DNA of 64,000 nt, from positions 29,396,296 through 29,460,295 of the forward strand of contig OX031068.1 of NCBI GenBank assembly GCA_943736015.1, in the 5' to 3' direction. The position numbers and the translations under genes are program-made. This document shows positions 3,905-24,005 of the stretch, in pieces. How positions within the stretch are numbered: the stretch's first letter is position 1; every line of letters begins with the position of its first letter. The stretch comes from Tridacna crocea. Its lineage: Eukaryota > Mollusca > Bivalvia > Cardiida > Cardiidae. The notes below the pieces were generated by a model. The model saw only the letters and a program-made list of their open reading frames with translations, did no database searches and was not told the origin of the DNA.

Positions 3905-3946
3905 CTAACCCTACACAATCCTGATATTTAAAACCTGTATAGTAAA
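3905..3946 (+). mobile_element. PT1 MITE, left fragment split by the foldback insertion
   Basis: AACCCTACACAATCCTGA matches the short-arm start of PT1. The copy resumes at 6776 after the foldback element; the two halves share the duplicated ATAGTAAA. Confidence 0.6.
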
Positions 3947-6150: not shown

Positions 6151-6219
6151 TAGATTTTCATATGGGCCACTATCAAAGAGGGGTTTAAATAGAAGGGTTA
6201 TTGTCTCATTTTTTGTCTG

Positions 6220-6315
6220 CCTATCCGTAGGAAAAGAAAAATATGCTGGTTACCAATATTTTCTACCTTTCCAACAATGTTTTCTACAGCCTTCTCAAGG
6301 TTGTCATGACTATAT
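6220..6315 (+). mobile_element. PT1 core remnant
   Basis: Only the core survives (GCTGGTTACCAATATTTTC) with a partial right flank; lies between the two right-hand foldback blocks. Confidence 0.4.
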
Positions 6316-6775
6316 AGATCATATCCATAAAAGATAACTCTTTTTTTAGGTAGTTGTGTTTATCAAGTTATCTCCCTTTGAATCTCATATGCGTGGATGT
6401 TTTAGTCTGAAACATCAATAAAACCAAGAGATAAACAACATACAAGTTAGATTTAGTTAGAAGAAACATTAATCTATGAGTAGCAATACTTTTTTTGTGA
6501 AAATATCACCCGAAAAGAAGTAGGGCGAGAGTTGAAGTGGTAGGGCGTATAGAGCACCTGTCAGCGATTGTCAGAACGAAAACTATCGATCAAATATCTC
6601 CAAAATTACACAAAATAAAGTTATGACTCTTGAAGACATGTTCGATAACGTATATTTTAAAAGGTATAAGTAATTAATTCCATCCGACACAGTCCATATA
6701 CCCGTAGGGCAATAATTTGTTTCATAGGGCGTCGTAGGGCGAATTTTTCCTGTAGGGCGTATTTTAGTATGACCC

Positions 6776-6957
6776 ATAGTAAAGGACTTTTGAGAAAGAG
6801 TACATTGTGAAAAATTAAGAAAATGCTGGTATAACCAGCAATTATTTTTTTCCTTTTTCCCATAATGTTTTCTACTCTATTAAAGTCTAAATCCATCATT
6901 TGAGCTACGGTTGAATTGTCTTTTAAATTGTCTTTTAGCTGTTTAATAAAGAGTTAA
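6776..6957 (+). mobile_element. PT1 MITE, right portion of the copy split at 3946
   Basis: Continues short arm, core and long arm to GAGTTAA. The core has gained AT at its centre (GGTATAACC) and an AT-rich expansion in the right arm. Confidence 0.6.
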
Positions 6958-7128
6958 TAGTCCTAACCTTGAAACACCATATATACCATTTGATGCAGGT
7001 ACTTAGAATGAAGATCTTTGTATATGGCAGCTAAAAATAATTGAAAAATTCTGCACCTTACAACGATTACCAATGTCCATTTGATCAGTTAAGAGTGGGT
7101 GGGGTAATTATTTACAATTTATCCGAAC

Positions 7129-7342
7129 CTTTGTATCTATTCCAGAGTGTTTCAAGGCGCTTTTTCTCGACTGTCGGTCGTGAAGTCTCATTGTATTTGT
7201 CAGGATTTTGAAAGTAGTTATCCACAGCTACGTCTAATTTCCAGTCATGACAGCTTAGACAGTGAATCCCGGTTTTCTCTGTAGTTTGGGTGAAGGCTAT
7301 AAACTGCCTCACTTTATCTCGCTGTGAGCTTTTCAGCTTGTG
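7129..7342 (-). CDS. DCUN1D1-like: DCUN1D1/2-like, exon 2 (N-terminal UBA-like part)
   Basis: DCN1-like proteins bind cullin and UBC12 and stimulate NEDD8 transfer to cullins. This 214-nt exon encodes 71 residues beginning HKLKSSQRDKVRQFIAFTQ, continuing through CHDWKLDVAVDNYFQNP and ending LETLWNRYK plus one base; this closely follows the N-terminus of animal DCUN1D1/2, a UBA-like domain leading into the PONY domain. The acceptor is TTAATTTTCAG at 7343-7345 and the donor AAAG|GTTCGG at 7127-7129. The exon starts in phase 0, so the initiator ATG must end an upstream exon (higher coordinates), as expected for the family's short first exon; I could not locate it. The last base G joins the next exon's AC to give the conserved Asp of the Tyr-Lys-Asp-Pro segment. 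Assignment to DCUN1D1/2 rather than DCUN1D3/4/5 rests on this N-terminus and the AATQCEF motif of the next exon. Confidence 0.93.
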
Positions 7343-8349
7343 CTGAAAATTAAAAGCGTATAGAAATTAAGAAATAGACATATTTAGAAGGGATATTTAA
7401 AGTATCAGTAGATGAAAGAGGCGAATAAAAGAATTGTCAGACTAAAAGTGGTGCTCAACCTACCATAATTTCGTAGTTTCTTGATTGAGGTATAGTGGAC
7501 TAATAAGTTGTGGACTAGAATTGTGTACACATGTCGTTATCGTCTCAAGCAATAAACATAATTATCGTACTCTGTCCAGAGACTGATTTTTAGGCGAAAA
7601 AAAAAAGAATGATTTTCGAAAAATCTTTTTGATACCTTAAAAATCGGATCTCTAAACTTTTTTTGCGGGGTGGGGGGGCAGTGTAGATAAAGATCAGATT
7701 CAAGAAAATCCATAAGATCGTAACTTTGATCAACTATCTCTTTTTTTTTTTTAGTAAAAATGTTCAAGGTTGCAACTTTCTCGATCTTTTCCTTAATAAT
7801 ATGAAACGTCCAATTTAAATGGGTAATGTAATTTCCACAGGAAAGAGTTTTTTTTTTTTTTTGATTTCAAGACTGTAAAACTGTAGAACTGCGCTGATCT
7901 TGAGTAATACGCATTCGTAATGTTCAGTTGAATCTTGATTTTCAATATTCAACAGTCTTTACTGAAAGTAATATTCAGTCTAGCATGCTTTGGTTAGCTC
8001 TGTCCAGGTGTTCACAGCATTCACAGATACATAATTTTACACTTTTAAAATTCTTAAAGATTTCCTTTTCATACCAGTGCAATCCTTGCAATTGAAATAT
8101 AGAGTATTTTGAGAAATTATTTAATTTATAGTTATCTTGTGTAAGAAATACATGTATAGAGATAATATACAGCCAGTGTTGCTTTGACAGAGCTGCCAAA
8201 CCAGGGAAAGTATACCATTAGGTCTAATGCAATTTATTGTATGCAGTCTGATCTTCATTCATCATATCTCTTTTTGTCATATTTTGTTATTTATAAGCGT
8301 AACAGGAAAGTAAGGTAACAAACAAAAATGATGATGATGGTGATGATGG

Positions 8350-8380
<31 letters not shown>

Positions 8381-8935
8381 GTGTTACTTACTTTTCTTTT
8401 CAAAGATTTTTTTTTTGTTTTTGGCCTCAAAGCTTTTTGTCCGAATCCGACTTCGTGTGCGATCCGAAAAAATATCTTCAAAATTTAATCAATGAGATTT
8501 TAGCCCCAGTCCATTTATCACAAGCGTTTATCAACCTGGATCTTCAAGCGTTTCTCAACTGAGACTAGAATTTCCGTATACGGAAGTCTGAGAGTTTTCT
8601 TGAAATAAACTAACTTGTGAATAGTTTATCTCCGCAATGTTCTACTACAGCTTGTCACAGGTATTTAATCTCGTTGACTTTCAATCATTTTGATCGATAC
8701 CGGATTTAAGAGTGAAGACTCTCAAGGCTAGTCTGTCAAAGTTCCTCTCTGTTTGACAGTGTGTCGTTGACTTCCGCTAAGAAAATAATGCCCCAAAACG
8801 GGTGTAGTGAAAACCCGAATTCTACCAAAGTCTTTCACTGTCAGATAAATGAATTCCACATTCCTCGAGGCTTAAAATACATTTTTGTCACCACTGAGCA
8901 TGATTTTGTGATAGATCAGCATAAGTAAGCAGATG
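7343..8935. other. Intron or 5' region of the DCUN1D-like gene, no exon found
   Basis: Should hold or lead to the start exon of the DCUN1D-like gene. I see poly-T runs and one microsatellite but no convincing ATG-plus-donor on the minus strand. Confidence 0.4.
8328..8379. repeat. (GAT)n microsatellite
   Basis: About 17 GAT triplets with two GGT interruptions. The open serine run on the minus strand is a by-product. Confidence 0.9.
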
Positions 8936-9773
8936 CAGGGTTCGAAATTCCCACATAATGACGTATTTACTCGCAAAATGCAAGCCAGAATTGGAAAATG
9001 CGAGTTGAAATTTCAAGCACTTGCAAAAAAATGCGAGTGCAAATTATTGAAGAACAGTTACCAAATGTACTAAATTTCATATGTGAATACAAAAAAAAGG
9101 GTAATTCTTTTTGTTCTGAATAAACATCGGTCATATCGCACTGAGAACACCCTTCGACGGATGTAGATAATTTTACATGTCGCCATTGAAGCCTCCGGCT
9201 TGTCGTTCGTTACCCGAGTTTCGTGAGGCAAGTGCGTTCGTCTGCACTCGCAGCCGATACTGAGGTTTTGCGTTTTTTATACGGAAAAAACGGTAGGCGA
9301 ATTCAATCTCTAATTTTAAACAAAAACATTTGACAATCTTTCATGAAAAGATAAATTATTGCGCACAAATAGCAACGAGAAGCAAGTCAGACGTTGTGGA
9401 CTCGCTAAACCATTTACCGGACATGCAGATATTCGGATGTTACACGTCCTTTTTTCATTTACAAAATCGTCCACCAGTGTAAGATTGGTAGAAATTTAAC
9501 CGCGCATTAGAACAGAAATTCAACTAAAATTGAATTGATTGTTAAATGAAGGTTTTAATGTCAATTAACATTCCTTTTGTTTGGTTGTTGTCTCGGGTTG
9601 ACAGGTTACGTAATAGAATAGAATTGAATAGTTTTTACCGGCCATTCGTTCTTTACAATTGGTAGGCAAGCTGAGCTTAAAAAAAATGCGAGTCCAGTTT
9701 TAATTTTGCAAGTGGAAATAAAAGCTACTTGCTAAAATTTGCAAGTGGATAAAAAAATGAAATTCGAACCCTG
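8936..9773. mobile_element. TIR element with CAGGGTTCGAA ends, non-autonomous
   Basis: Ends are CAGGGTTCGAAATT and its near complement AATTCGAACCCTG, flanked by AGATG on both sides (8931-8935, 9774-9778). Inside each end, TGCGAGT/TTGCAAGT-type motifs repeat. The CAGGG-type end resembles hAT elements, but the visible duplication is 5 bp rather than 8. No transposase frame. Confidence 0.6.
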
Positions 9774-10038
9774 AGATGGTGTTTCTATTCACAGTCTGAT
9801 CAGACTGCACAAAAGATGCCAGCTGATCTTGACCTATGCCATCTGCTAAAGATGTCTAGGACAGTAGTGGCAATGATAGAGTTAAAGGCCAGTAAAGTAA
9901 ACAGGATTAGTGACCTATTGCCGTTTTTCTGGCTTTAAAATCCATTTTTCTTCCAGCAAAGTTCTAACTGCAGGACTGACCATTAACCGACAGATTGCCA
10001 GTTTTTTGCAATAAATTCTTTAATCTAAATGCTATGAT

Positions 10039-10269
10039 TTAACCCATTACCACACAATCCCTACTTTTGACGCCCCTGAGAAAGAAGCCTTTAGAAAACA
10101 TTGTGGGAAAAGGAGAAAATGCTGGTAACTAGCATTTTCTCCTTTTCCCACAATGTTTTCTACCCTTCACAAAACAAATTTCAAAATTTACAGTCACTTT
10201 TATTTTGTAGTCTGCAAATGCTTTTGATTTGGACAAGCCTAAAATATTGTCGTTTGGTAATGAGTTTAA
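10039..10269 (+). mobile_element. PT1 MITE, intact
   Basis: TTAACCCATTACCA start and full core centred on GGTAACT/AGC; the end is GAGTTTAA. Followed within 50 bp by the C-rich minisatellite. Confidence 0.9.
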
Positions 10270-10310
10270 TCTATATATATTTTTTAACACCTACATTGGA
10301 GTCTAGGACA

Positions 10311-10575
10311 ATTCCCCCCCAGACAAATGCCCCCCGGACAACTCCCCCCGGACAACTCCCCCCTGGACCATTGCCCCCCAAGACAATTGCCCCCCGAGAC
10401 AATTACCCCCTGGACCATTACCCCCTGGACAACTGCCCCCCGGACAATTACCCCCTGGACAACTACCCCCCGGATGATTGCCCCCCAGACAAGTACCCCC
10501 CAGGAAATTGCCCTCCTAGGACAATTACCCCCCAGGACAATTGCCCCCCAAACAACTGCCCCCCAGACAATTACC
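10311..10575 (+). repeat. C-rich minisatellite, about 15-bp unit
   Basis: About 17 tandem units of the type CCCCCCGGACAATTG with CAACT/CAATT variants. Open frames through it (Pro-rich) are repeat artefacts. The complementary strand has G5-G7 runs. Confidence 0.9.
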
Positions 10576-10960
10576 TCCTTAAAAACACAAGGATGTTCAA
10601 ACCATCATATGCTTATAAGCAAATTTCATAGTGAAACTCGTCAAATTTGTGAGCACTTTTCCGACGGTCTACAATTTTTTTCGCAAACGGTTCTTCCTCC
10701 TCACATTCTGAATCAGAGGATTATGCCAACCGACGTATTTATCATCAAAATATCCGCAGAGAATTACACATTTAAACGCACCTCGTCTTGATTCCCTTCC
10801 TAATTCCAGCCTTACCCTAAAACCATCCATGCTGCATGCAACATGACAGAAATGAACAGTCATTGCGGAGCTTCTATAATGATGGAATCTCACTGTCCAG
10901 AATATGACTCCCAGCAAACCCACCATTATTAAATGTCAAATTCAACTCTAACCGTGGATC

Positions 10961-11615
10961 CCTGAAATTGACAGAATCTGATTTCAAGAAGGCGTTTCTG
11001 GTGGCCATATTGTAAATCGCAGCACTGCCATTTCGACAGGAACTTTCCTCTAGTCACACCCAACATACATAGAAAAAATCAATATGAAAAAGTTTTCACT
11101 GAAATTGACAGAATATGATTTCAAGATGGCGGATCTGGCAGCGATACTGTTAATCAGAACGCGGCCATTTCCAAAAGGAAACTTCTTCTATAAATCTCCC
11201 CCAAAATACAAAAAAAAATCAACAAGATCAGACAAATGGTTCTACATGAAATTGACGGAATCTGATGTCAAGCTTGTGGCTCTTCGGCCATATATTCGAA
11301 AGGAAACTTCCTCTAGTCACCCCAAACACTCACACAAAAAGTCAATAAGTTCGGACATAACGGTTCTCACTGAAATTGATGGAATCTGATTTCAAGACTG
11401 CTGATCTGGCGGCCATATTGTAAATTGGGATGCGGCTATTTTAGATAGGAACCTCCTTTAGACACTCTCAAAATACACACAAAAAATCAAATTGATTGGA
11501 CCAGCTGCTTCTTTATAAATGATTGAAAATGGAAAGTTTATGGCATGACACCGACGGCGGACGGACGTGGGACGACATAATGCCCTGCTTCTTTTGAAGC
11601 GGTGGGATAAAAATC
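10961..11615 (+). mobile_element. Hairpin-tailed element with four internal tandem blocks
   Basis: Four blocks of 125-146 bp start TGAAATTGACAGAATCTGAT (10961, 11097, 11248, 11369), each followed by GGCGGCCATATT-like sequence. The element ends with GGCGGACGGACG and a hairpin, CCCTGCTTCTTTTGAAGCGG, then GATAAAAA. The same tail plan occurs at 58350-59118 and, inverted, at 62469. Confidence 0.6.
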
Positions 11616-11911
11616 AGTTATTACGGCCAACAGAGCTCAGTTACATCTGTTAAGTTTGTCTATCATCTTTTGTACCAAAATAATGTGCGGTTTTGATCAT
11701 TTGGCAGGCCTACTACATGATAAGCAGACGCCATCTTTCAACAACTCGAGGAACTCCTACTCGACGTGCGTACTTCAAATTTGATCACATGAAAAATCTA
11801 GTAATCTAATCTAGTTCCAGTTGAGCTCGGCCTTAGCATTGAACTCAAGGTCTGACGCTGAAAGCCGCCAATGACCTCGTCCCAAAGCAAAAGCAGAAGA
11901 AATTGCGAGTC

Positions 11912-12168
11912 AGATGGGGGGGATTGTCGGGGGGGGGGGGGGGAATTGGCAGGGGGCAGTTGTCTGGGGGGGAAGTTGTCTGGGGGGGAATTGTCCAGGG
12001 GGTAATAGTCCTGGGGGGCTATTGTCTGGGGGGCAATTTGCCTTTGGGGGGGTAATTGTCCAGGGGGTAATTGTCTCGGGGGGTTATTGTCTTGGGGGGC
12101 AATTGTCCCGGGGGGAATTGGCAGGGGGCAGTTGTCCAGGGGGCTGTTGTCTGGGGGGAATTGTCCTG
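11912..12168 (+). repeat. G-rich minisatellite, inverted to the one at 10.3 kb
   Basis: About 17 units of GGGGGGAATTGTCC/GGGGGCAGTTGTC, the complement of the 10311-10575 unit. A run of 17 G lies at 11928-11943. The sequence CCTACATTGG sits just outside both arrays in the same orientation. Confidence 0.9.
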
Positions 12169-12215
12169 ATACGCCTACATTGGTTATTTTTGGTCGTCGT
12201 GGGCCTTTCAGCTCC

Positions 12216-12335
12216 AAAGATCCAGATAGAGGAGTGATTTTGATTTTAAAATTGAAAATACTACTAATTCTCCAATAAACTGTATGTAATGGGTACTACA
12301 GTAATTAGTATCGTCTCAATGAAAGGCTTCTAATC
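12216..12335. repeat. Dispersed repeat, partner of 1343-1463
   Basis: Shares CCAGATAGAG, GTGATTTTGATT and GTATCGTCTCAATGA in order, but lacks the complete terminal palindrome. Confidence 0.55.
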
Positions 12336-12976
12336 AGCCTTGAAAATTTCATGTCTACTCATCATGATGAGTGAGCTCGGCTATTGGACAAGCAGAAATT
12401 TGCAAAGGCGGGATGGCAACATGATTCAACACAGCCCTAAAAAAAAATTCCAAGTCCTCTGACACCTGACCATACAACAAATTTATTATACTGCAAAGTT
12501 TTACCCTTTCAAAGCATGTTAAGCGAAATTTTCTTGTATTATAATCTCACGAAATGAGTACGATGACGAATTAGAAATTTCCTTCTGAGTGCCCAAATTA
12601 AATGAAAACTGACGTCACTTGAAACTGATGTCACTGAAACATGCAGTTTGGTGCATTAATGTGCAGTCTGGTACTTGATCGACGCTGCCATTTTGGATGT
12701 TGTGTTTGCAAGACTTAGTGTAGTGACGTTTACAGGGCACTCAAAAGGGAAACTGGCTTTACATGGTTTTTGCTAGGGAAGATGATATATATGTTCCCAG
12801 CATGTTAACCTATTGGATCACAAGAAATTTCTTTGCAGTATGATAATATTTGCTTTGACGGCTTCCAAAGCAAGAAATCCATTTTCTAGAAGAAAACAAT
12901 GGTCTGAAGAGATTTCTAATAACTGAATACCAGCAATTTTCATTTTCCCACAGTGACGCTGTCATTCTCAAGATTA
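12336..12976. other. Upstream flank of MSRB3-like gene, no exon found
   Basis: Might contain the 5' UTR exon or promoter of the MSRB3-like gene, but I cannot place either. Confidence 0.3.
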
Positions 12977-13198
12977 TTAACTCTTTACCACACAATCCAG
13001 ACTGACCCTGAGAAAGAAGCCTTTTGAAAAGATTGTAGGAAAAGGAGAAAATGCTGGTTTCAGCATTTTCTCCTTTTCCCAAAATGTTTTCTTCCCTTTC
13101 AAAGAAAAACCATTTTGTATGAGTCACAATGAAACTATTATCAGCAAATGCTTTCAGTTAGGGCAGGTCTAAAATCTGGTCATGTGGTAAAGGGTTAA
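12977..13198 (+). mobile_element. PT1 MITE, 110 bp upstream of MSRB3 exon A
   Basis: TTAACTC start, GGGTTAA end. The centre of the core is shortened to GCTGGTTTCAGC. The long arm has the AAACCATTTTG..GAGTCACA variant. Confidence 0.9.
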
Positions 13199-13308
13199 AA
13201 AAGATTGTTTTCTATGTTTGGTATGGTATGTTAATATCAAACTTTTTTTTTGTTTGAAATTCCTTATTTGTTTTTATTCCTTCATTCCTTTTTTGTTTCT
13301 ATTCACAG

Positions 13309-13531
13309 AACCTATGCTGGTAAAATTTATTTGTACTTGTTTCTTAACAATTGGCTGGATGAACATCCTCCACCTTGTAACAGCCAAAAAGGATCCATCT
13401 CCAGAAATACAGAAACTGAAGGCATCATGTAAAGAGACCGCCACGTGTCCAGTGAAATACCCGAAAGATGATCTTAAGGAACGTCTGACACCGTTGCAAT
13501 ACAGAGTCACACAGGAAAAGGGCACTGAAAG
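13309..13531 (+). CDS. MSRB3-like: MSRB3-like exon A (signal peptide and MsrB N-terminus)
   Basis: MSRB3-type enzymes reduce methionine-R-sulfoxide in proteins. After a strong polypyrimidine acceptor (TTTCTATTCACAG) the exon has an ATG at 13314 opening 72 codons. The first residues, MLVKFICTCFLTIGWMNILH, then LVTA, look like a cleavable signal peptide. They are followed by CKETATCPVKYPKDDLKERL and TPLQYRVTQEKGTE, the usual MsrB start. The donor is GAAAG|GTTGGT; the last two bases AG join A from exon B to make Arg. ATG 13314 is chosen because it lies just inside the exon and yields the signal peptide; translation from further upstream would read intron. A 5' UTR exon is expected but not found. 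A PT1 copy starts 37 bp past the donor. Confidence 0.92.
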
Positions 13532-13567
13532 GTTGGTTTTAGCCCCTTCATCATGAATATTGATGAC

Positions 13568-13794
13568 TTAACCCATTACCACGCAATCCCTACTTTTGAC
13601 GCCCCTGAAAAAGAAGCCTTTTGAAAACACTGTGGGAAAAGGAGAAAATGCTGGTAACCAGCATTTTCTCCTTTTCCCACAGTTTTCTACCCTTCCCAGA
13701 ACAAATTTCAATTTTTCAGACACTTTTATTTTGTCGTCTGCAAATGCTTTCAATTTGGACCTGTCTAAAATTTTCTCGTGTGGTAAAGAGTTAA
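13568..13794 (+). mobile_element. PT1 MITE, intact, 37 bp after MSRB3 exon A donor
   Basis: The core has the paired change CACTG/CAGT (consensus CATTG/CAATG). Full ends TTAACCC and GAGTTAA. Confidence 0.95.
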
Positions 13795-13800
13795 TGTTTT

Positions 13801-13985
13801 ATTAGATGACAAAATTGTAGACTTGTTCAAATTGAAAGCATTTATCATGTCAAAATTGTAAGCATTTGCAGACAACAAAATTTTAGGAGAGTTGACAACA
13901 CTATGAGAAAATGCTGATTACTGGTATTTTCTGTTTTTTGCTACTTTTTCTTTCTCAAAGCCTCCTCTTTACAGGATTGTAAAAG
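13801..13985 (-). mobile_element. PT1 MITE, decayed
   Basis: Long arm first (GACAAAATTGTAGACTTG) with an internal repeat of the AAGCATTT block; core reduced to GCTGATTACTGGTATTTTC. Confidence 0.55.
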
Positions 13986-14054
13986 AGGATTTTGTAATTG
14001 AAGCTTATTCAGTCTTTACATCTTGGATTGTAGAGCTGGTGCTGTTTCAGTTTT

Positions 14055-14265
14055 TTAAACCCTTTACCATGCAATGAAGACTTTTAATGACCCAGGGAAA
14101 GAAACCTTTTGAAAAAATTTGGGAAAAGGAGAAATGTTTCCCAAAATGTTTTCTACTACATCAAAAAAAGATTGCACTGTTTGAACCACAGGGAAATTGT
14201 TGTCTGCAAATACCGTTACTTTCAATTTAGACAAGGTTAGAATTTAGTCAGCTGGTGAAGGGTTA
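14055..14265 (+). mobile_element. PT1 MITE with internal core deletion
   Basis: The core lacks the central AAAATGCTGGTAACCAGCATT, leaving GGGAAAAGGAGAAATGTTTCCC. Right end is GGGTTAGG. Confidence 0.8.
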
Positions 14266-14448
14266 GGTATGGAGTAATCAAACCCAATTTCAGGTTTCAT
14301 TAATATACATAAATGTATTCATTGTGCCAAAAGGAGTAATTTCTGATCACAAGTGATGTCTTCCCTGGGCCGCATAGTTTTGAAAAGTTGTCTGTAGTAG
14401 GATACAAAAAAGTCATACATGTATGTATAAATAATCATGTGTTTGCAT

Positions 14449-14546
14449 GACCCAGAGCAAGAAGGTATTTGAACACATCATGGCAAAAGGAAAAAAATGC
14501 TGGTTATGGATGTATTTTTCCCTTTCAGTAACAAATTTCATCATTT
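14449..14546 (+). mobile_element. PT1 MITE remnant
   Basis: Short arm and half core (ATGCTGGTTATGG); the right core arm is largely lost. Confidence 0.5.
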
Positions 14547-14758
14547 AACTCTTTACCAAGTGACAAAGTTTTAGACCAGTCCAGACTGAAAGCCATTGCA
14601 GATGTTAAAATGAATGTGATTCGAGAATCAAAATTTGGTTTGGTAAGGGTAGAAAACATTGTGGGAAAAGGAGAAAATGCTGTCTACCAGCATTGTCTCC
14701 TTTTCCCACAATGTTTTCAAAAAAATGTTTTCTCAGGGTCGTCAATAGTCAAAGTAAA
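14545..14758 (-). mobile_element. PT1 MITE, right end eroded
   Basis: TTAACTCTTTACCA start; core centre GCTGTCTACCAGCATTGTC. The short-arm terminus beyond GGTCGTCAATAG is gone. Confidence 0.85.
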
Positions 14759-14818
14759 ATGAATCCCAAAAGTGAATAAAGAGTGTGTTTAAATGCATTT
14801 AGATTTATATCTTACTAT

Positions 14819-15042
14819 TTAACTCTTTACCAAACAATCCTGACTTTGAACAACCCTGAAAGAGAAGCTTTTTGAAAACATTGTGGGAAAAGGAGAAAAT
14901 GCTGGTCACATTTTCTCCTTTTCCCACAATGTTTTCTACCCTGCTAGAAACAAATCTCAATTTTTTGTTACAATTATTTTGCCGTCTGCAAGTGCTGTCA
15001 CTTTGGACCAATCTAAATTTTTGTTGTTTGGTAAAGGGTTAA
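14819..15042 (+). mobile_element. PT1 MITE, one core arm shortened
   Basis: The core centre lacks ACCAGC (GCTGGTCACATTTTC). Complete TTAACTC and GGGTTAA ends. Confidence 0.9.
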
Positions 15043-15254
15043 AAGTATGGAAACTCTTGTGAAAATGGCAATCTGTCATTGGACAGTTGGTCCAATTGTT
15101 AGTTGCTGACAGAAATTTATTTCAAAACTAGGTGAAAACCTACCAGATAGCTGTCTTATTTTTATATTTTGCCTGATATAAAAAATTCTTTTCTCTGCCA
15201 GGGACTAATATATGGTCCAACCAAAAGATAACAGATTGCCATCTCCTGGGTATT

Positions 15255-15482
15255 TTAACCCTTTACCACACAATGCCGACTTTTGATGCTCAGAAAAGAA
15301 GCCTTTTGAAAACATAGTGGGAAAAGAAGGAAATGCTGGTAACTAGCATTTTCTCTTCTTCCCACCATGTTTTCTACCCAATCAAAGAAAAGGTGTACCA
15401 TTTGAGCCACATTGAAACTGTCGTCTGTCAAATGCTTTCAATCTGGACAAGGTTAAAATTTTGTAGTCTGGTAAAGGGTTAA
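15255..15482 (+). mobile_element. PT1 MITE, first of a head-to-tail pair
   Basis: Core variant GGGAAAAGAAGGAAATG on the left arm only. Its final TTAA (15479-15482) is also the first TTAA of the next copy. Confidence 0.93.
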
Positions 15483-15707
15483 CCCATTACCACACAATCC
15501 CTACTTTTGACACCCCTGAGAACGAAGCCTTTAGAAAAACATTGTGGGAAAAGGAGAAAATGCTGGTAACCAGCATTTTCTCCTTTTCCATAATGTTTTC
15601 TACTCTTATTAAAACAAATTTCAAATTTACAGTCACTTTTATTTTGTCGTCTGCAAATGCTTTTAGTTTGGAGAAGGTCAAAATTTTGTAGTCTGGTAAA
15701 GGGTTAA
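15479..15707 (+). mobile_element. PT1 MITE, second of a head-to-tail pair
   Basis: Starts in the TTAA of the preceding copy; TTAACCCATTACCA start, GGGTTAA end. Confidence 0.93.
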
Positions 15708-15735
15708 ATGGTATGGTTTTAATCTAAATGTATTA

Positions 15736-16059
15736 CATGGGTGGATTCAGAAGGGGGGACCGGGGTCCTGACCCCCCCTGGAATTTTGGCAAAAATGTGG
15801 TTATCGGATTCGTGAAACGGTACTGGTTTGATATTGCACAGCATTTATGTAAAATACAGTCATAAATTTAAAAAAAAAAAGTTCTAAATGTGGAGACCTT
15901 TCTAAATGTGGAGACCTCCTCATGGTTAGAACTGGAAACGTTGACTTTTCTTGTAAACGGCTTACATCCATTGAAATCCTGAAATCAAAGTATCATATGA
16001 TAAGCATCGTGCGTTTTCGGTGGGACCCCCCCTGAGAAAGATATCTTGATCCGCGCATG
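15736..16059. mobile_element. TIR element (CATG-GGATTCA ends), TATTA duplication
   Basis: Ends CATGGGTGGATTCAG and TTGATCCGCGCATG are imperfect complements, flanked by TATTA at 15731-15735 and 16060-16064. Just inside are G-rich GGGGGGACCGGGG and C-rich GGGACCCCCCCTGAG. No coding capacity. Confidence 0.6.
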
Positions 16060-16246
16060 TATTATGACTCCAGTCTGCTGTGATATTTTGGCCTCTACTT
16101 TCCATGTAACTCTTTCCCTACCAAAAAATGGGTTTGACTTTTCTTTATTCGATATATTTGTTGCTTTTGAGGCTGATTTTAGTTGAAGAGTGGTTTTAGG
16201 TCATGTGCAGTCTGATCTTAATCTATGCCATTTGCAAAAGATGTTT

Positions 16247-16476
16247 TTAACTCTTTACCACACAATCACAAATTTTGACGCCCTTGAAGAAAAAGCTTTT
16301 TGAAAATGTTGTGGGAAAAGGAGAAAATGCTGGTAACCAGCATTTTCTCCTTTTCCCACAACACTTTCTAGCCTTCCCAAAACAAGTTTCATTTTTTTGA
16401 GCAAAGGTTACTTTGTCATCTGCAAATACTTTGAATTTGGACGAGCCTGAAATTTTGTTGTTTGGTAAAGAGTTTA
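16247..16476 (+). mobile_element. PT1 MITE
   Basis: Core arms GTTGTGGG and CCCACAAC match in an unusual outer pair (paired A to G / T to C). End decayed to GAGTTTAGG. Confidence 0.9.
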
Positions 16477-16482
16477 GGCCAC

Positions 16483-16579
16483 AATTGCAGTGAAAGACTT
16501 ACGGCACTTTTAATGTATTGTCTATAAATGATTCAATATGTACTAGTCTAAAACTTTGTCATCTAGTGTAAAGAGTTAA
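16483..16579 (+). mobile_element. PT1 MITE, long-arm remnant next to MSRB3 exon B
   Basis: Only the long-arm end is left: CACTTTTAATGTATTGTC, GTACTAGTCTAAAAC and GTAAAGAGTTAA. The exon B acceptor is 23 bp further on. Confidence 0.7.
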
Positions 16580-16602
16580 AAGTGTATACTTATTTAATAC
16601 AG

Positions 16603-16775
16603 AGCGTTTTCTGGAAAGCTACTAAATCATAAAGAGGAAGGCTCATACAGATGTGTTGTGTGTGGAAACAGGATTTTTTCTTCCGAACACAAGTTCAACT
16701 CTCATTCAGGTTGGCCGTCATTCAGTGATGTCATAGCAAAGGATAGCGTCACTTTGTCCGACGATACTTCACATG
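16603..16775 (+). CDS. MSRB3-like: MSRB3-like exon B (first zinc-binding Cys pair)
   Basis: This 173-nt exon encodes AFSGKLLNHKEEGSYRCVVC, then GNRIFSSEHKFNSHSGWPSF and SDVIAKDSVTLSDDTSH plus one base. It carries the first CxxC zinc pair (CVVC) and the MsrB signatures SGWPSF and the SE.KF segment of the core fold. The acceptor ends ATTTAATACAG; the donor is CACATG|GTAATG. The trailing G completes a Gly codon with the GT that starts either last exon. The acceptor lies 23 bp after a PT1 remnant (16483-16579), so part of the branch-point region is MITE-derived and pyrimidine-poor. Confidence 0.95.
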
Positions 16776-16819
16776 GTAATGTCATGATTTTAATCTTTAT
16801 CCTTTATTTAGCGATTGTA

Positions 16820-17015
16820 TGTTCTTGATGATGCAAAGAAGGCTTTTGGAAACATTGTTGGCAAAAGAAAAAATGTCCCTCAGACTAGTATTTTCCTCTT
16901 TTCCCAAAATTGTTCACACATTTCCAACAACAAATTCAGTTATTTGAATCAGGTTAATTTGTTCTCAGCAAAAATTTTTGATTTTGACAAGTTTAGAATT
17001 GCCTGGAATAGAGGC
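16820..17015 (+). mobile_element. PT1 MITE, decayed
   Basis: AAGAAGGCTTTTGGAAACATT on the left and GACAAGTTTAGAATT on the right; the core palindrome is lost at its centre (GTCCCTCAGACTAG). Confidence 0.55.
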
Positions 17016-17043
17016 AATGATATTATACTGTATATTAGATAAT

Positions 17044-17272
17044 GTATCCCTTTACCACACAATTCCGACTTTTAATGACCCTGAGAAAGACATCTTCTGA
17101 AAACATTGTGGGAAAAGGAGAAAATGCTGGTTACCAGCATTTTCTTCTTTTCCCACAATGTTTTCTACCCTTTCAAAATGAAATTTCAATTTTTGATTCA
17201 CATTTATTTTATCATCTACAAATGCTTTGAATTTTGACTAAGCAAGAATTTTGTCGTTTGGTAAAGAGGTAT
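17044..17272 (+). mobile_element. PT1 MITE flanked by GTAT instead of TTAA
   Basis: GTAT at 17044-17047 precedes CCCTTTACCACACAA and GTAT at 17269-17272 follows GGTAAAGAG. Central base is T (GGTTACC), unlike most + copies. Confidence 0.9.
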
Positions 17273-17799
17273 ACTATATACTATATACTGTGTCAACAAT
17301 CTGTAGTTCTACTCAAATAGGAATATGAAAGCATCTGATAGGGAATGAGGAATGACTTTGTGCTTATAAACCCTATTATTCCTTTTCCCTGAATATCAGA
17401 TCAAAAGTCAAATTCTGCCAATCCATTGAAACAATTAAGTCATTCTCTAGCAAAGGGGGGTTTGATAAATATTCATGTTGCATTGTACCAAGTAAGTCAT
17501 CTCACAATTATAGATCCATAAAATCCATTCTAACAACAGAATATTTACCAAACACAAAATGTTTAGATCCAGGTCAGCCTGTAAAACTGCCCAGGCTGGC
17601 TTGGGTTGACACTTTTTGCTGATGCATTGGGACCCCTAGTCACAGGGCAAGGCTGAATTTGTATTTGTGTGATAAGGAGTTGAATTCAATTGCAGAGAAA
17701 TCTTGAAAGGCTCTTTCCTTTTGTGCTGTCATTACATTTTCTTTGTGCTTGATTCTTGATTTGAGGAGCAAACAAAGCCCAAAAGTGGCTTCCCACTCA

Positions 17800-18020
17800 T
17801 TTCATTACCACAAATCCCTACTGACGCCCCTGAGAAAGAAGCCTTTAGAAAACATGTGGGAAAAGGAGAATATGCTGGTTACCAGCATTTTCTCCTTTTC
17901 CCACAATGTTTTCTACCCTTCACAAAACAATTTTCAAATTTTCAGTCACTTTTATTTTGTCGCCTGCAATTCCTTTCAATTTTGACAAACCAAAGATTTT
18001 GTCTTTTGGTAATGGGTTAA
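17800..18020 (+). mobile_element. PT1 MITE, T-centred core
   Basis: Left TTAA decayed to TTCA. The core centre is GGTTACC although the short arm comes first. Shares its right TTAA with the next, inverted copy. Confidence 0.88.
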
Positions 18021-18242
18021 CCAAAGATCAAAATTTTAGACATGTCCAACTTCAAAACACTTACAGACACCAACTTAAATGTTACTGAAAAGATTATTTT
18101 TGTCATTTATTGTTTAGAAAACATTGTTGGAAAAGGAGAAAATGCTGATTACCAGCATTTTCTCTTATTCCAACAATGTTTTCAATAGCTTTCTTCCTTA
18201 GGATCTTCAGAATTAATGTCAGGATTGTGTGATAAAGAGTGA
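18017..18242 (-). mobile_element. PT1 MITE, abutting the preceding copy
   Basis: Core arms GTTGGAAAAGG and TTCCAACAATG show a paired G to T / C to A change. End eroded (GATAAAGAGTGAAT). Confidence 0.85.
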
Positions 18243-18305
18243 ATATCAAGTATAGCTTAAAACTTAAGTTTAGTGAATATTTTGACTCTACAGAAAATAC
18301 TCTCT

Positions 18306-18534
18306 TTAACTCTTTACCACACAATCCCGACTTTTAACGACCCTGTGAAAGCAGCCTTTTGAAAACACTATGGGAAAAGGAGAAAATGCTGGTAACCAGC
18401 ATTTTCTCCTTTTCCCACAGTGTTTTTTACCCTTCCAAAACCAAATTTTTATTTTTCAGTCACCTTTATTTAGTCGTCTGCAAATGCTTTCAATTTGGAC
18501 CAGTCTAAAATTTTCTTGTGTGGTAAAGAGTTAA
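18306..18534 (+). mobile_element. PT1 MITE, intact
   Basis: Paired CACTATGGG/CCCACAGTG outer arms; perfect inner core. TTAACTC and GAGTTAA ends. Confidence 0.93.
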
Positions 18535-18605
18535 CAAACCCATTGATGCCATGATGCTGTCACATGATTGGGTACAAGGATTACCCATGGAGTAAAGATT
18601 AGAAT

Positions 18606-18800
18606 TTATCCAATACCACACAATCCTGTTTTTTTTTTTTTCAACCCTGAGGAAAACAGCCATAAAAAGCATTGTAGGAAAAAGGGGAAAGTGCTAGTAA
18701 CCAGCATTTTCTCCTGTTGTCTAACCTACCAAAGCAGATTTATAGTCATATATTATATTTCATCGACATGTGTCTATTTTTAGAAATGTTATGGGTAAAG
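18606..18800 (+). mobile_element. PT1 MITE, decayed
   Basis: Short arm carries a 12-T insertion; right core arm broken after CATTTTCTCCTG. Confidence 0.6.
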
Positions 18801-18974
18801 AAATGTTGTAAATTAAGCTGGCGGGAATTATTTTCGGGTCACAGTGAATATTTTCCTCCTGCCGAAAATTAGGAACTACTTTTTTTGAAAATATCGGATA
18901 ATCCGGTTAATTGACATGAGATCACTAGTTTTAAAAGTGGCATTTGATGACAAAATAATCCCTAGAAATACATA

Positions 18975-19136
18975 ATTTATTGCATCAGCTTGTGGTTAAT
19001 ATGGGGAAATATTTGCCTCAGAAGGGAAAGGTCTGCGAAAAATAACTTGTGCCTTATGGCACTCGTTGTTTTCGCATATCTGTCCCTTTTTCGGCATATA
19101 TTCCCCCATATTAACCACAAGTTGATGAAATAAACT
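18975..19136. repeat. About 160-bp imperfect palindrome
   Basis: ATCAGCTTGTGGTTAATATG near 18984 and its complement CATATTAACCACAAGTTGAT near 19108 begin two arms of about 80 bp; they meet at GTGCCTTATGGCAC around 19056. A foldback MITE unrelated to PT1. Confidence 0.7.
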
Positions 19137-19239
19137 TCGTTTGAGGCACATTTTATTTGTTGTTTGCGAATGCATTGAATTCGAAAAAGTATGAAGGTTT
19201 GTCATTCAATAAAGACCTAAGATGATAAAACATGTTCGC

Positions 19240-19345
19240 CAACAGTTATATTTCAAATCCTAAATCCCAAGACTAGCCATTTGATTGGCTTATACTAAGT
19301 GTCTAAATCAATCAGATGTCAAGATTTGGAATTTGAATCTGTGAA
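19240..19345. repeat. Imperfect palindrome
   Basis: ATTTCAAATCCTAAATC and GATTTGGAATTTGAAT face each other across GCCATTTGATTGGC. Ends about 55 bp upstream of MSRB3 exon C. Confidence 0.5.
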
Positions 19346-19399
19346 GCTAATTCATAGAGGTAGGGCTAGATAGTATAGACCAACACTTCTGTCCCCCAG

Positions 19400-19569
19400 G
19401 TATGAGACGGGTGGAGGTCACATGTTCTAAATGTGGAGCGCACCTGGGCCATGTTTTTGAGGATGGACCACCGCCCCTTGGAAAAAGATATTGTATCAAC
19501 TCTGTGGCAATGGATTTTGTTAAACAGGATGATAGAAAACCAAATGCAAAGATTAAATCTGAACTTTGA
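19400..19569 (+). CDS. MSRB3-like: MSRB3-like alternative last exon C (ends KSEL)
   Basis: After CCCCCAG the exon encodes (G)[19 protein letters not shown], then [20 protein letters not shown], and a tail ending NAKIKSEL before TGA at 19567-19569. It supplies the second zinc CxxC (CSKC), the GHVF.DGP motif and the catalytic Cys in RYCINS. The mature form with exons A and B would be 186 residues. The C-terminal KSEL resembles the KAEL that holds human MSRB3 in the ER. AATAAA at 19592-19597 fits a terminal exon. Its sequence is only partly similar to exon D, so these are old duplicates. Confidence 0.93.
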
Positions 19570-19591
19570 AATGAAATGTTTGCTTTGAAGG

Positions 19592-19597
19592 AATAAA
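19592..19597 (+). terminator. Poly(A) signal of MSRB3 exon-C transcript
   Basis: AATAAA 22 bp past the exon C stop, in unique sequence; suggests a very short 3' UTR. Confidence 0.6.
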
Positions 19598-19700
19598 TGA
19601 TTGATTGAAATACATGATGATTTTGATTTGAAATTTATCAGCCAAAGGCCAGAAGAGCTTATGTTATGGCACAGCTTATGTCTGTCAGTCTATGTTGGCC

Positions 19701-19928
19701 TTAACCCATTACCACACAATCCCTACTTTTGACGCCCCTGAGAAAGAAGCCTTTTGAAAACACTGTAGGAAAAGGAGAAAATGCTGGTAACCAGCATTTT
19801 CTCCTTTTCCCACAGTGTTTTCTACCCTTCCCAGAACAAATTTCAATTTTTCGTCACCTTTATTTTGTCGTCTGCAAATGCTTTCAATTTGAACCAGTCT
19901 AAAATTTTGTCGTGTGGTAAAGAGTTAA
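19701..19928 (+). mobile_element. PT1 MITE, intact
   Basis: Belongs with the 13568 copy: CACTG on the left arm and CAGTG on the right, and CGTGTGGTAAAGAG at the end. Confidence 0.95.
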
Positions 19929-19998
19929 TTAGCCTGTGATAAAATCTTTAATTGTACTAGACTTTTTATCAAGGCAAGAAATAAAGGAAGTTCTACTA

Positions 19999-20217
19999 TT
20001 AACCCTTTCCAAAACAACAAAATTTTAGACGGGTCCAAAGTGATTGCACTTGCAATTGACAAAATAAACGCAGGTCAAAAATTAAAATTTGTTTTCTGCA
20101 GGGTAGAAAACATCATGTGAAGAGGAGAAAATGCTGGTTACCAGCATTTTCTCCTTTTCCCACAATTTTTTCTTTTTTAGGTTCGTAAAACCCAGGGATT
20201 GTTTGGCAAAGTTTTAA
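19999..20217 (-). mobile_element. PT1 MITE
   Basis: The left core arm has lost GGGAA (ATCATGTGAAGAGGAG), so the hairpin is bulged. Right end eroded to GGCAAAGTTTTAA. Confidence 0.85.
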
Positions 20218-20425
20218 GTAAGAAAAAGTAGCCTTTGCAGTATTTAACTTTTTTTTTAATCGATTATAAAAGGTTTCCTTCAAACTGAAATACACTGGTC
20301 AGTAACTGCAAACAGAGCAGTTTTGGCCATCTTGGCCTGTTGTTTGAGCTTTAATTCTGTGATGTTTATTGCACAGAATTATTTTCAATCATTCATTTCT
20401 ACTTTTTGCTCACATCAGTTCACAG

Positions 20426-20801
20426 TTAACTCTTTATCAAACAACAAATTTATGGACTGGTCCAAATTGAAAGCATTTGCAGACAACAAAATAAAAGTGA
20501 CTTAAAAATCAAATTTTGATTTGGGAAGGGCAGAAGACATTGTGGGAAAAGGATAAAATGCTGCTTACCAGCATTTTCTCCTTTTCCTACAATGTTTTCA
20601 AAGTCCCAACTTTTGATGACCCAAGAAAGAAAGCCTTTGAAAACATTGTGAGAAAAGGTGAAAATGCTTTTCCCACAATGTTTTGTACCTTTTCCGAAAT
20701 CAGCTTTCCAATTTTTGATTCACATGTATTTTGTCGTCTGCAAAATTAATGCTTTCAATCTGGACTACTGGTTATCCAAAATTTTGTTGTCTTGCAGTTA
20801 A
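20426..20801. mobile_element. Two PT1 copies fused head to head
   Basis: A minus copy loses its short-arm end after TTTTCAAAG and continues directly into a plus copy that lacks its TTAACCCTTTACCA start (TCCCAACTTTTGATGACCC). The second core has an internal deletion. Confidence 0.85.
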
Positions 20802-20902
20802 ATTCCAGTACAAATGAACAAACTATCTGTAGGTTTAGAAAATAATACTACTTCTGGTTGACTAAAACAAGTAACTTAGCTAATTAGAAGTTGTGTTAAG
20901 AT

Positions 20903-21132
20903 TTGACCCATTACCAAACAATCCCTACTTTTGGCGACCCCCAGAGAAAGAAGCCTTTTGAAAATATTGATGAAAAAGGAGAAAATGCTGGTAACCAGCA
21001 TTTTCTCCTTTTCCCACAATATTTTCTTCCCTTCCCAAAACTATTTTAAATTTTTTGTCACTTTTATTTTGTCATCTGCAAATGCTTTCGATTTCGACAA
21101 GCCTAAATTATTGTCAGTTGGAAATGAGTTGA
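20903..21132 (+). mobile_element. PT1 MITE flanked by TTGA on both sides
   Basis: TTGA at 20903-20906 precedes CCCATTACCA and TTGA at 21129-21132 ends it. The core left arm is ATTGATGAAAAAGG. Confidence 0.9.
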
Positions 21133-21341
21133 AAGATTCATGAGATTGAGATTAAAAATGTTCTTAAGAATAATTGGTTAAAAAGGCCTGGTTATGTCTG
21201 GATTCGCTAGGTTCGATCTCCACAACTGAACTTTTCAGGGAGTGTTCATGTGTAAGGAACTTCAGACCCCCAGAATAGAAAAGATAAAATCAACACCTTA
21301 TATCCTAACTTAAATTTGCAGCCATTCATTCATTCTTAGTG

Positions 21342-21566
21342 TTAATTTCAAACTGGTTTTCATGACCTTGGGAAAGAAGGCTTTTACTTTAAAAAGATAA
21401 TAGGAAAAGGAGAAAGTGCTGGTGACCAGCATTTTCTCCTTTTCCTAAAATGTTTTCTACCCTATGAGAGATCTAAAGCTATTTTTTACCGATTCTGAAT
21501 TTGCCGTTTGCAGAATCTACTCTCAGTTTGGAGAAGTCAGAAACTTGCCGTTTGGGAGAAGGTTAA
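21342..21566 (+). mobile_element. PT1 MITE, diverged subtype
   Basis: Core GATAATAGGAAAAGGAG..TTTCCTAAAATG; the long arm differs (GATTCTGAATTTGCCGTTTG), like the 27989 copy. Confidence 0.75.
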
Positions 21567-21724
21567 GAACTGTCATTTGGAAAAGGCTGAAGAATTATTG
21601 TTGATTAATAAATACAGACCTACGTTTCATATGTAATTGCAGATACTTCAAAACACCATTTCAACAAGCTTGGTTCATTTATTATATGAACATTGTACAA
21701 GACAAGTTATATTTTGCAGCCCAA

Positions 21725-21850
21725 AGGTAAAATGGCTTTTGAAAACATTGTAGGAAAAGAAAAAGGCTAATAAGGCCTTTTCCCACAATGTTTTCAGAAG
21801 GCTTCTTTTTTGGGGTGGTGAAAACCTGGAATTGTTTGATAAAAGGTTAA
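21725..21850. mobile_element. PT1 MITE with two short arms
   Basis: Left flank GGCTTTTGAAAACATTG and right flank AATGTTTTCAGAAGGCTTC are both short-arm sequence; no long arm. The core centre is deleted (GAAAAAGGCTAATAAGGCC). Exon D starts 58 bp further on. Confidence 0.7.
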
Positions 21851-21908
21851 GTCATTTTTGAATTATGTTACTGCAAACTTACTAAAGACATTTGTTTCCC
21901 AATTTCAG

Positions 21909-22048
21909 GTGCAAAGAGAGTAGAAGTAAAATGTGCTGACTGTCAATCCCATCTTGGGCATGTGTTTGACGACGGACCAAAGCCCACAGGCGTCCGTTTC
22001 TGTGTTAATTCTGCGTCCCTGAACTTTAAAAAGGAGACTACAGTGTGA
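21909..22048 (+). CDS. MSRB3-like: MSRB3-like alternative last exon D (no ER-retention motif)
   Basis: After AATTTCAG the exon encodes (G)[19 protein letters not shown], then [20 protein letters not shown] and KKETTV before TGA at 22046-22048. It has the same phase as exon C and repeats all its functional elements: zinc pair [12 protein letters not shown], catalytic Cys in RFCVNS. It lacks any KxEL ending. With exons A and B the product would be 176 residues. It could be spliced to exon B instead of exon C. Alternatively it could be a relic of a tandem gene copy, but no second A or B exon lies between 19.6 and 21.9 kb, and the frame and splice site are intact. Confidence 0.88.
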
Positions 22049-22172
22049 CCCATGCTACTGGGTTGCTGATGGAAATGTTTTTGATGTGCCAGGGTTTTTT
22101 GAAAGGCAGCAATAATTGTTCTCCACATTTTAAATGTATTGTCCGGTAACTTAAGTAACTGTTTGCTCTTGG

Positions 22173-22404
22173 CTTATCCCTTTACCAAATGAAAAAAAAA
22201 ATCTTAGACTTTTCCAATCTGAAATCATTTGCAGACAGCGATTTTAGTGTGGCTCATGTGGTGCAGTTTCTCTTTGATAGAGTGGAAAACATAGTGGGAA
22301 AAGGAGAAAATGCTGGTTACCAGCATTTTCACTTTTTCCCAAAATGTGTTCAAAAGGCTTCTATTTCAGAGTCTCCAAAACTCGGGTCTTTGTGGTAAAT
22401 AGTA
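22173..22404 (-). mobile_element. PT1 MITE in putative MSRB3-D 3' UTR
   Basis: Left end TTATCCC, right end eroded. Long arm reads ATTTTAGTGTGGCTCATGTG. Abuts the next copy in the same orientation. Confidence 0.88.
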
Positions 22405-22628
22405 ACACTTTACCAAATGACAAAATCATAGACTGGTCCAAATTGCAAGGATTGCAAATGACAAAATAAACATGACTGAAAATTTGAAAGTTGTATTGGG
22501 AATGGCAGAAAACATTGTGAGAAAAGGAGAAAATGCTGGTTATCAGTATTTTCTCCTTTTTCCTCAATGTTTTCAAAAGGCTTCTGTCTCACAGTTGTAA
22601 AAAGTCCAGATTGTTTGGTAAAGGGTTA
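22402..22628 (-). mobile_element. PT1 MITE in putative MSRB3-D 3' UTR, second copy
   Basis: Core arms GTGAGAAAAGG and TTTTCCTCAATG are nearly paired. Ends GGGTTAA, followed by AATAAA at 22667. Confidence 0.9.
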
Positions 22629-22666
22629 AAAAATAAGCATTTTACAGTTTTGGAAATATCCTTGTG

Positions 22667-22672
22667 AATAAA
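22667..22672 (+). terminator. Possible poly(A) signal of MSRB3 exon-D transcript
   Basis: AATAAA about 620 bp past the exon D stop, just beyond two PT1 copies. If used, the 3' UTR would hold both MITE palindromes. Choice of signal is uncertain. Confidence 0.35.
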
Positions 22673-22679
22673 GGAAATT

Positions 22680-23240
22680 CAAGATGTATAGAGGTTTAAT
22701 AATAGACTGCAAAAAAAAAATAAAGGATCACATGTCCTTGACTGTGATCACAAGATAATTTTTTTATACAGGACATTGCAAATAATTTTATGTCACACAG
22801 GCGTTTTAGAGAATCAGAGGTGTCATTGTTTCACCTCATCCTCTTCTTATACATTAGATTTGACAAGAATATGAACAGAATATCGGAAAAGGTATTAGCT
22901 GTTGAACAGAAGAACTAGGAAAACATTTTTTTGTTTTATTTTCTTCTTAACATGGCTTATCAGCATTTAGAATAAACAAGAAAACTTCGGAGCCATTTTA
23001 TCTAGTAAGAATGGAAGCTGATGGTTTTCAGAGCACAAAGACAGAGTATTTAGCAAAGTGAAAGATTTGAACTTCATGATTTTTGTGATCCTTTAATTCC
23101 TTTGAGCAGTGTATTAAACTTGTGTGCATGCTTAATTTCCTTTTTTTAGCATATTAAGCTAATACTTGTGAAAATATTGTGGTAAAGAGAAATTGCTAAT
23201 TAGACCAACTTGTGTTTTATGTCAGAATATTTTTTAAGCC
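22680..23240. other. No feature recognised
   Basis: AT-rich, no open frame of note. A faint PT1-like core (AATATTGTGGTAAAGAGAAATTGC) lies at 23171-23196. Confidence 0.4.
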
Positions 23241-23246
23241 ATGTCT

Positions 23247-23310
23247 GATGGTACAATACAATTCCAAGTTTTAATCACCCTGAGAAAGGAGATTTTTGAA
23301 ACATTGTGAG
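23247..23310 (+). mobile_element. PT1 short-arm remnant
   Basis: GGTACAATACAATTCCAAG then CACCCTGAGAAAGGAG and GAAACATTGTGAG; core and long arm absent. Confidence 0.5.
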
Positions 23311-23453
23311 TAAACTTCAGGTAACTTTAATACAGTTTAAAACATTGAGATAGAAGGAAAATTTACTCCATTTTAGCAACTTATACTTTTACCTCAATTT
23401 TTTCAAAAGTAGTGTGCAGCAAGGAACGATAATGTACAGATGGGACTGAACAC

Positions 23454-23720
23454 TTAACCCCATGAGCAGATATAGACTTGTCCAAATTGAAAGCCTTTGT
23501 AGATGATAATTTAAATGTGTTCAAATGATGAATACTTCCTTGATTGAGTAGAAAACATTGTGGGAAAAGGAGAAAATACTGGTAACCAGCATTTTCTGTT
23601 TTTCTCAAAATGTTTTCTACCCTCCCAGAACAAATTCCTATTTTTGAGTCATGTTAATTTTGTTTTCTGCAAATTTCAATTTGGACCAGTCTAAAATTTT
23701 GTTGTTTGGTAAAGAGTTAA
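23454..23720. mobile_element. PT1 MITE with two long arms
   Basis: Left side is long arm (GACTTGTCCAAATTGAAAGC) and right side is also long arm (CAATTTGGACCAGTCTAAAA), giving 267 bp instead of about 228. TTAA at both ends; the right one is shared with the next copy. Confidence 0.88.
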
Positions 23721-23945
23721 CCCATTACCACTCAATCCCTACTTTTGACGCCCCTGAGAAAGAAGCCTTTTGAAAACACTGTGGGAAAAGGAGAAAATGC
23801 TGGTAACCAGCATTTTCTCCTTTTCCCACAATGTTTTCTACCCTTCACAAAACAAATTTCAAATTTTCAGTCACTTTTATTTTGTCGTCTGCAAATGCTT
23901 TCAATTTGGACTAGTCTAAAATTTTGTTGTTTGGTAAAGAGTTAA
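23717..23945 (+). mobile_element. PT1 MITE, near consensus
   Basis: TTAACCCATTACCACTCAA start, CACTG on the left arm only, GAGTTAA end. Confidence 0.95.
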
Positions 23946-24005
23946 AACATAATATTATTTTAAAAATATTTTGTAACCTTAAAGTTTACCTTACAACTCT
24001 GAATC

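Follow-up and report, generated by a model that had tools for sequence, protein, structure and literature searches.

Can a single gene supply two methionine sulfoxide reductases by a choice between two last exons, and in which respect would the two enzymes then differ? This question is raised by an MSRB3-like gene of the bivalve Tridacna crocea, which lies on the plus strand with four exons (A, B, C and D), all within the stretch of 64,000 nt that was analysed, hereafter the window (contig OX031068.1, positions 29,396,296-29,460,295; the genome comprises 31 contigs with 1.05 Gb in total). It is through separate genes and first exons that MsrB forms become sorted in mammals (PMC7475093, PMC6316033). 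In the case of human MSRB3 the forms differ by alternative first exons, as the original prediction had stated for mammals, whereas the gene described here appears to have two alternative last exons; in pig and mouse no such first exons were found (PMC4696113, PMC6316033). The MSRB3 gene has also been said to seem restricted to mammals (PMC6316033), which is contradicted by chicken and zebrafish MSRB3 entries (PMC4696113) and by the present gene. Judging from the genomic sequence, we consider it probable that both last exons of this single MSRB3-like gene are used and that they originated when the terminal exon was duplicated in tandem, a long time ago.

Feature coordinates are collected in Table 1. 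Exon A ends two bases into a codon that is completed by exon B, and exon B ends one base into a codon that exons C and D each complete as Gly; the joins of B to C and to D both use GT/AG sites and both reading frames stop at TGA, yielding products of 186 aa (ABC) and 176 aa (ABD). The original prediction of one MSRB3-like gene, in which C and D share the acceptor phase and B can be joined to either, is thereby borne out, i.e. a shared upstream exon is followed by two in-frame terminal exons that each have an acceptor and a stop. Of the final 20 nt of each acceptor, 14 are pyrimidines, and the nearest preceding AG lies 22 nt upstream; in neither exon does a GT directly follow the stop codon. 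The sequence TACTAAAG before exon D resembles a branch-point consensus. Since exon A has an acceptor of its own, an untranslated exon is likely to lie farther 5'. Translation of exon A gives a likely signal peptide (MLVKFICTCFLTIGWMNILHLVTA), a CX5C motif (SCKETATC) and the start of the SelR region: the N terminus is hydrophobic and ends in VTA, the mean hydropathy being 2.2 in the first 11-residue window and below 0 in the window at residue 19, and it is followed by the same CX5C motif that forms the resolving pair in human MsrB3 (PMC7475093).

Table 1. Features of the window (positions within the 64,000 nt; a slash marks a splice junction)
Feature	Position	Strand	Remarks
Exon A	13309..13531	+	ATG at 13314, 5 nt upstream of ATG; coding 13314-13531
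Exon A junctions			acceptor ttctattcacag/AACCTA; donor AAAG/GTTGGT
Exon B	16603..16775	+	CVVC (first zinc CxxC), GWPSF; donor CATG/GTAATG, phase 1; common to both forms
Exon C	19400..19569	+	terminal exon 1; acceptor ctgtcccccag/GTATGA
AATAAA, likely poly(A) signal of exon C	19592..19597	+	23 nt after C stop; motif scan
Branch-point-like TACTAAAG	21880..21887	+	22-29 nt before exon D
Exon D	21909..22048	+	terminal exon 2; acceptor cccaatttcag/GTGCAA
First AATAAA after exon D stop	22465..22470	+	417 nt after stop; weak; motif scan
Possible exon, UBA-like domain	7112-7366	-	UBA_4 42.4 bits
369-aa open frame	39957-41066	-	no Pfam match
Retroelement reverse transcriptase frame, 593 aa	41714-43495	+	RVT_1 116.9 bits; between the CNG-like exon and the 369-aa frame
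Cyclic nucleotide-gated (CNG) channel-like exon	44077-44430	-	cNMP_binding 60.3 bits; best solved relatives CNG channels

Both products read as MsrB3-type enzymes. Translation confirmed the motifs that had been predicted for each last exon, namely the second zinc CxxC, HLGH, DGP and the catalytic Cys (CSKC, HLGH, EDGP and RYCINS in exon C; CADC, HLGH, DDGP and RFCVNS in exon D). The seven zinc and active-site residues that were checked are all identical in C and D: two zinc Cys, two His, Arg, the catalytic Cys and Asn, where the His, Arg and Asn are those that we take to be key residues of MsrB. The whole-domain scores with PF01641 (SelR) are 170.0 bits for ABC and 167.6 bits for ABD (cut-off 24.9), in agreement with the proposal that two terminal exons can each complete the same gene, and those with TIGR00357 are 182.4 and 178.6 bits (cut-off 113.05). 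When compared with 177635 distinct PDB sequences, each product matched 22, the top three of which were chains of human MsrB3 for either form; this best relative scored 195.6 bits with ABC and 185.6 bits with ABD, and the next protein 142.9 and 143.0 bits, respectively. As the seven key residues are alike, the exchange of C for D should keep the chemistry, and both products are predicted to retain it. The layout is that of vertebrate MSRB3 (human MsrB3A/MsrB3B), with a likely signal peptide, the CX5C, a SelR domain with two zinc CxxC, one catalytic Cys and, in exon C, an end that looks KDEL-like (KAEL in human, KSEL here), and the A/B intron lies at the place of the boundary between pig exons 3 and 4 (GAAAG/; PMC4696113).

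Exon D is without CVVC and GWPSF, which both lie in exon B; with half of its zinc site and GWPSF residing there, D alone cannot make an MsrB and would serve a purpose only when joined to a B-type exon. Exons C and D each hold the other half of the zinc site plus the catalytic Cys, and one or the other is therefore required for an active enzyme. In mice, deletion of the last Msrb3 exon leads to deafness, so that the exon is needed there (study cited in PMC12403523).

The B-type exon in question could in principle be another one, if D were part of a second MSRB3 gene with A and B exons that lie elsewhere, are split up more finely or are absent from the assembly, or if D were reached by trans-splicing. 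We regard this as very improbable, given that 2.3 kb separate C from D, which follows it downstream, shares its strand and fits the phase of the gene's own B donor, and that a genome-wide search, although it missed some MsrB exon pieces, listed no other MSRB3-type B exon. A six-frame PF01641 search of the whole 1.05 Gb listed seven places, all above the curated cut-off: exon B (domain positions 16-76, 68.4 bits, E 4.3e-16), exon C (74-115, 64.0 bits, E 9.6e-15), exon D (74-116, 61.9 bits, E 4.5e-14), two places on contig C6 and two on contig C1. Exons B, C and D are not chance matches, since each passed the family cut-off in a search of this size. None of the seven places is a further MSRB3-type B exon, and a separate A/B set belonging to D, the alternative that the original prediction had considered, was not found among them; the search did miss at least five MsrB exon pieces at C6 and C1 that were found by tblastn, so it is not exhaustive and an A/B set in smaller exons could escape it, which is what speaks for a second gene. 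The tblastn searches were run with ABC and ABD on the window (E<=10), on 40 kb of C6 and on 40 kb of C1. They yielded no extra MsrB-like exon in the window, nor anything resembling A or B in the interval from C to D; the few remaining matches in the window (best E 0.022, inside a reverse transcriptase frame) look like chance.

By tblastn the C6 stretch is MSRB2-like and the C1 stretch MSRB1-like. C1 carries two tandem MSRB1-like genes that both have TGA at the catalytic site (SRF-TGA-IFS), likely two selenoprotein copies; at gathering scores Rfam had 0 matches either in the window or in three of the four C1 pieces, and no SECIS in the 30 kb of C1 searched. C6 carries an MSRB2-like gene and a partial second tandem copy, with exon two 92% and the last exon 96.5% alike. 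In the partial copy the middle exon is matched over 82 of 160 nt only, DGP is changed to DEP and the first exon was not found in the searched C6 sequence; the copy may be decaying. These genes thus share the SelR family and the presence of tandem copies with the MSRB3-like gene, but they are separate genes at C1 and C6, the MSRB1-like copies differ by their catalytic-site TGA, and MSRB2 differs in keeping an intron inside the CxxC.

The intron positions bear on the origin of C and D. The last intron of pig MSRB3 splits the second CxxC just before its second Cys (CTCAG/TGCGGT; PMC4696113 Table 3), and the T. crocea MSRB2 is best read with a last intron at this position too (AGGAAG/TGTGAC). Unlike in the pig gene, there is no intron inside the second CxxC of the MSRB3-like gene, in which C and D both begin 32 nt before the second Cys. 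Because this start is common to C and D and found in neither pig MSRB3 nor the MSRB2, C and D would most simply result from duplication of the terminal exon itself and not of the whole gene. An assembly or allelic duplication was rejected, as the two share only 75 of 126 nt. No unique duplication footprint was seen in their flanks (blastn of 16776-19900 against 19900-22600, 80 matches): 63 of the matches have the core of a hairpin-forming repeat nearby on both sides, eight lie on a repeat-like stretch (21712-21807) and nine are short with an E of 1 or more.

The duplication would be old. Identity between C and D is 23 of 42 residues and, by codon position, 26, 32 and 17 of 42, with 4 of the 10 shared four-fold sites identical. 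Human MsrB3 shares 28 of 42 residues with C and 24 of 42 with D, and D shares 25 of 42 with the T. crocea MSRB2 and 26 of 42 with an archaeal MsrB. On sequence alone, D is therefore no closer to C than to MSRB2, human MsrB3 or archaeal MsrB, and the case for its descent from C is made by gene structure and position.

Alternatively, D might be what is left of a tandem MSRB3 gene after the loss of its A and B exons, and be unused or spliced in as rare noise. The other MSRB genes are tandem as well (MSRB1-like at C1, MSRB2 and its partial copy at C6), and no AATAAA occurs within 400 nt after the D stop. We nevertheless deem a remnant improbable, as tblastn gave no A- or B-like exon in the stretch from C to D, and as D, although diverged, has kept an intact frame, its acceptor, the branch-point-like site and all seven key residues. 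In 100000 neutral simulations, with all divergence placed on one lineage and run to the observed nucleotide identity, 23682 kept an open frame, 2 kept an open frame together with the seven key residues and 0 reached 23 identical residues; in a separate neutral run 1 of 20000 reached that number. A codon model for three sequences (C, D and the T. crocea MSRB2; 42 codons, convergence tried from two starts only) gave a lnL of -412.43 when free, -415.35 with D neutral and -412.77 with C neutral. Neutrality is thus rejected on the D branch (2 x delta lnL 5.84, p about 0.016, with saturated branches and the D branch at its cap), and is not rejected on the C branch (0.69) in the same three-sequence model. 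The signal of purifying selection on exon D is a modest one, which supports, and does not prove, that it has been maintained as coding sequence.

If both last exons are functional, in what do the enzymes differ? The original prediction was that the active-site half of the enzyme is swapped. That half is indeed exchanged, but the checked catalytic and zinc-binding residues are unchanged and the C-terminal tail is the clearest difference between C and D. Exon C has a tail of 16 residues that ends in KIKSEL, the KSEL being KDEL-like by eye; exon D stops six residues beyond the last conserved Phe (FKKETTV), and its short tail, KKETTV, ends in ETTV, which is not KDEL-like. The presence of KSEL in the one tail and the lack of a KDEL-like end in the other suggest a retained and a less retained form, and, provided that both last exons are used, the odds that the choice of tail separates a retained from a less retained or secreted MsrB3 seem to us to fall a little below even.

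The role of KSEL as an ER signal is proposed by resemblance. Human MsrB3 ends in KAEL, and KDEL-like ends have been shown across mammals (PMC7475093); no test of KSEL in MsrB3 was found in the literature searched. In the case of AGR2, a review reports that function is abolished when KTEL is replaced by KDEL or KSEL, which does not decide the matter of retention (PMC10183570). A human MsrB3 construct that ends at mature residue 137 still crystallised, and the FKKETTV end of ABD falls close to that cut point (PMC7475093). The same paper calls the mechanism of ER residence of MsrB3 not fully resolved, and cites work in which human MsrB3 cut before KAEL remained in the ER (PMC7475093), which counts against a destination switch based on the tail.

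That result would make the tail swap minor and leaves room for a catalytic purpose of the same two last exons, i.e. that the two halves prefer different substrates or reductants, or work at different rates, within one compartment. As many as 19 of the 42 core residues differ between C and D, among them a Lys/Val and a Tyr/Phe exchange beside the catalytic Cys (GKRYC versus GVRFC), and at five of these 19 sites C or D departs from a residue on which the T. crocea MSRB2, human MsrB3 and archaeal MsrB agree. The other 14 sites, however, also vary among those three proteins, the seven checked residues are the same and ABC and ABD score alike as MsrB, for which reason we see a catalytic specialization as possible, if rather unlikely.

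For the retained and less retained forms, the following course of events can be envisaged. Once C and D had arisen, long ago, as tandem copies of one terminal exon, transcripts spliced from B to C would be terminated by the poly(A) site that closely follows C, and would specify the 186-aa enzyme that ends in KSEL. When the C acceptor is skipped, B would be spliced to D and the transcript would end farther downstream, where, in addition to the first AATAAA after the D stop, a motif scan gave further ones at 22667, 22719 and 22971, and the 176-aa enzyme would be made. The alternatives would thus be use of the early poly(A) site or a splice to the distal acceptor, with both mRNAs presumably being produced. 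Both forms should fold as MsrB, with zinc bound across the B/C or the B/D boundary, and for the reduction of methionine-R-sulfoxide each should employ the same catalytic Cys together with the CX5C resolving pair of exon A. The main consequence would then be one form with and one form without an ER-retrieval tail. That the gene in this manner yields an ER-retained reductase and a secreted one (or one of the late secretory pathway), the latter being an MsrB dedicated to the extracellular space or the surface and built with a duplicated active-site half, is a tentative and rather doubtful extension.

The window also contains a family of hairpin-forming repeats with the core GGGAAAAGGAGAAAATGCTGG and its complement, the aligned copies of which reach about 220-230 bp. 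At up to 4 mismatches there are 114 half-copies in the window. Their number per kb is 3.91, 4.19 and 4.70 in the A-B, B-C and C-D introns and 4.10 in 22049-24000, as compared with 0.75 in 1-13308, 1.55 from 24000 on, 2.50 in the C6 stretch and 0.93 in the C1 stretch. The density is thus highest in and around the MSRB3-like gene (12900-24000), and the excess extends beyond the introns that flank C. More speculatively, exon C might be looped out with the help of the hairpin-forming repeats that lie on either side of it, in that copies flanking C could pair across it, but each copy also folds on itself. As to the other features of the window (Table 1), the 369-aa open frame may belong to the CNG channel-like gene, and the gene content of the locus appears to be that of an animal.

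A last-exon choice that changes the destination of a protein is known for membrane versus secreted IgM and for the tails of acetylcholinesterase. The present proposal resembles these cases by analogy, as the destination of the same body would be set by the last exon; it differs in that the alternative part is mostly tail there and includes half of the active site here. The arrangement, with a shared upstream donor, two terminal exons that each have an acceptor and a stop, and a poly(A) signal close to the nearer one (C), corresponds to the splicing class named MXE-ALE in PMC12442299, from which it deviates in that the terminal exons are diverged copies carrying half of a zinc site and the catalytic Cys. 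A survey of metazoan selenoproteins gives SelR counts for six animals, and nothing on the last exons of MSRB3 was found in its available text (PMC3473315); no previous account of alternative last exons for any MSRB gene was recognised in the open-licence literature searched. While the splicing class is known, its placement across an active site is unusual and apparently constitutes a new variant for an MSRB3 gene. If true, the last-exon switch would represent another route by which methionine repair is brought to different compartments, and it would provide a natural test of the role of the MsrB3 tail in ER residence.
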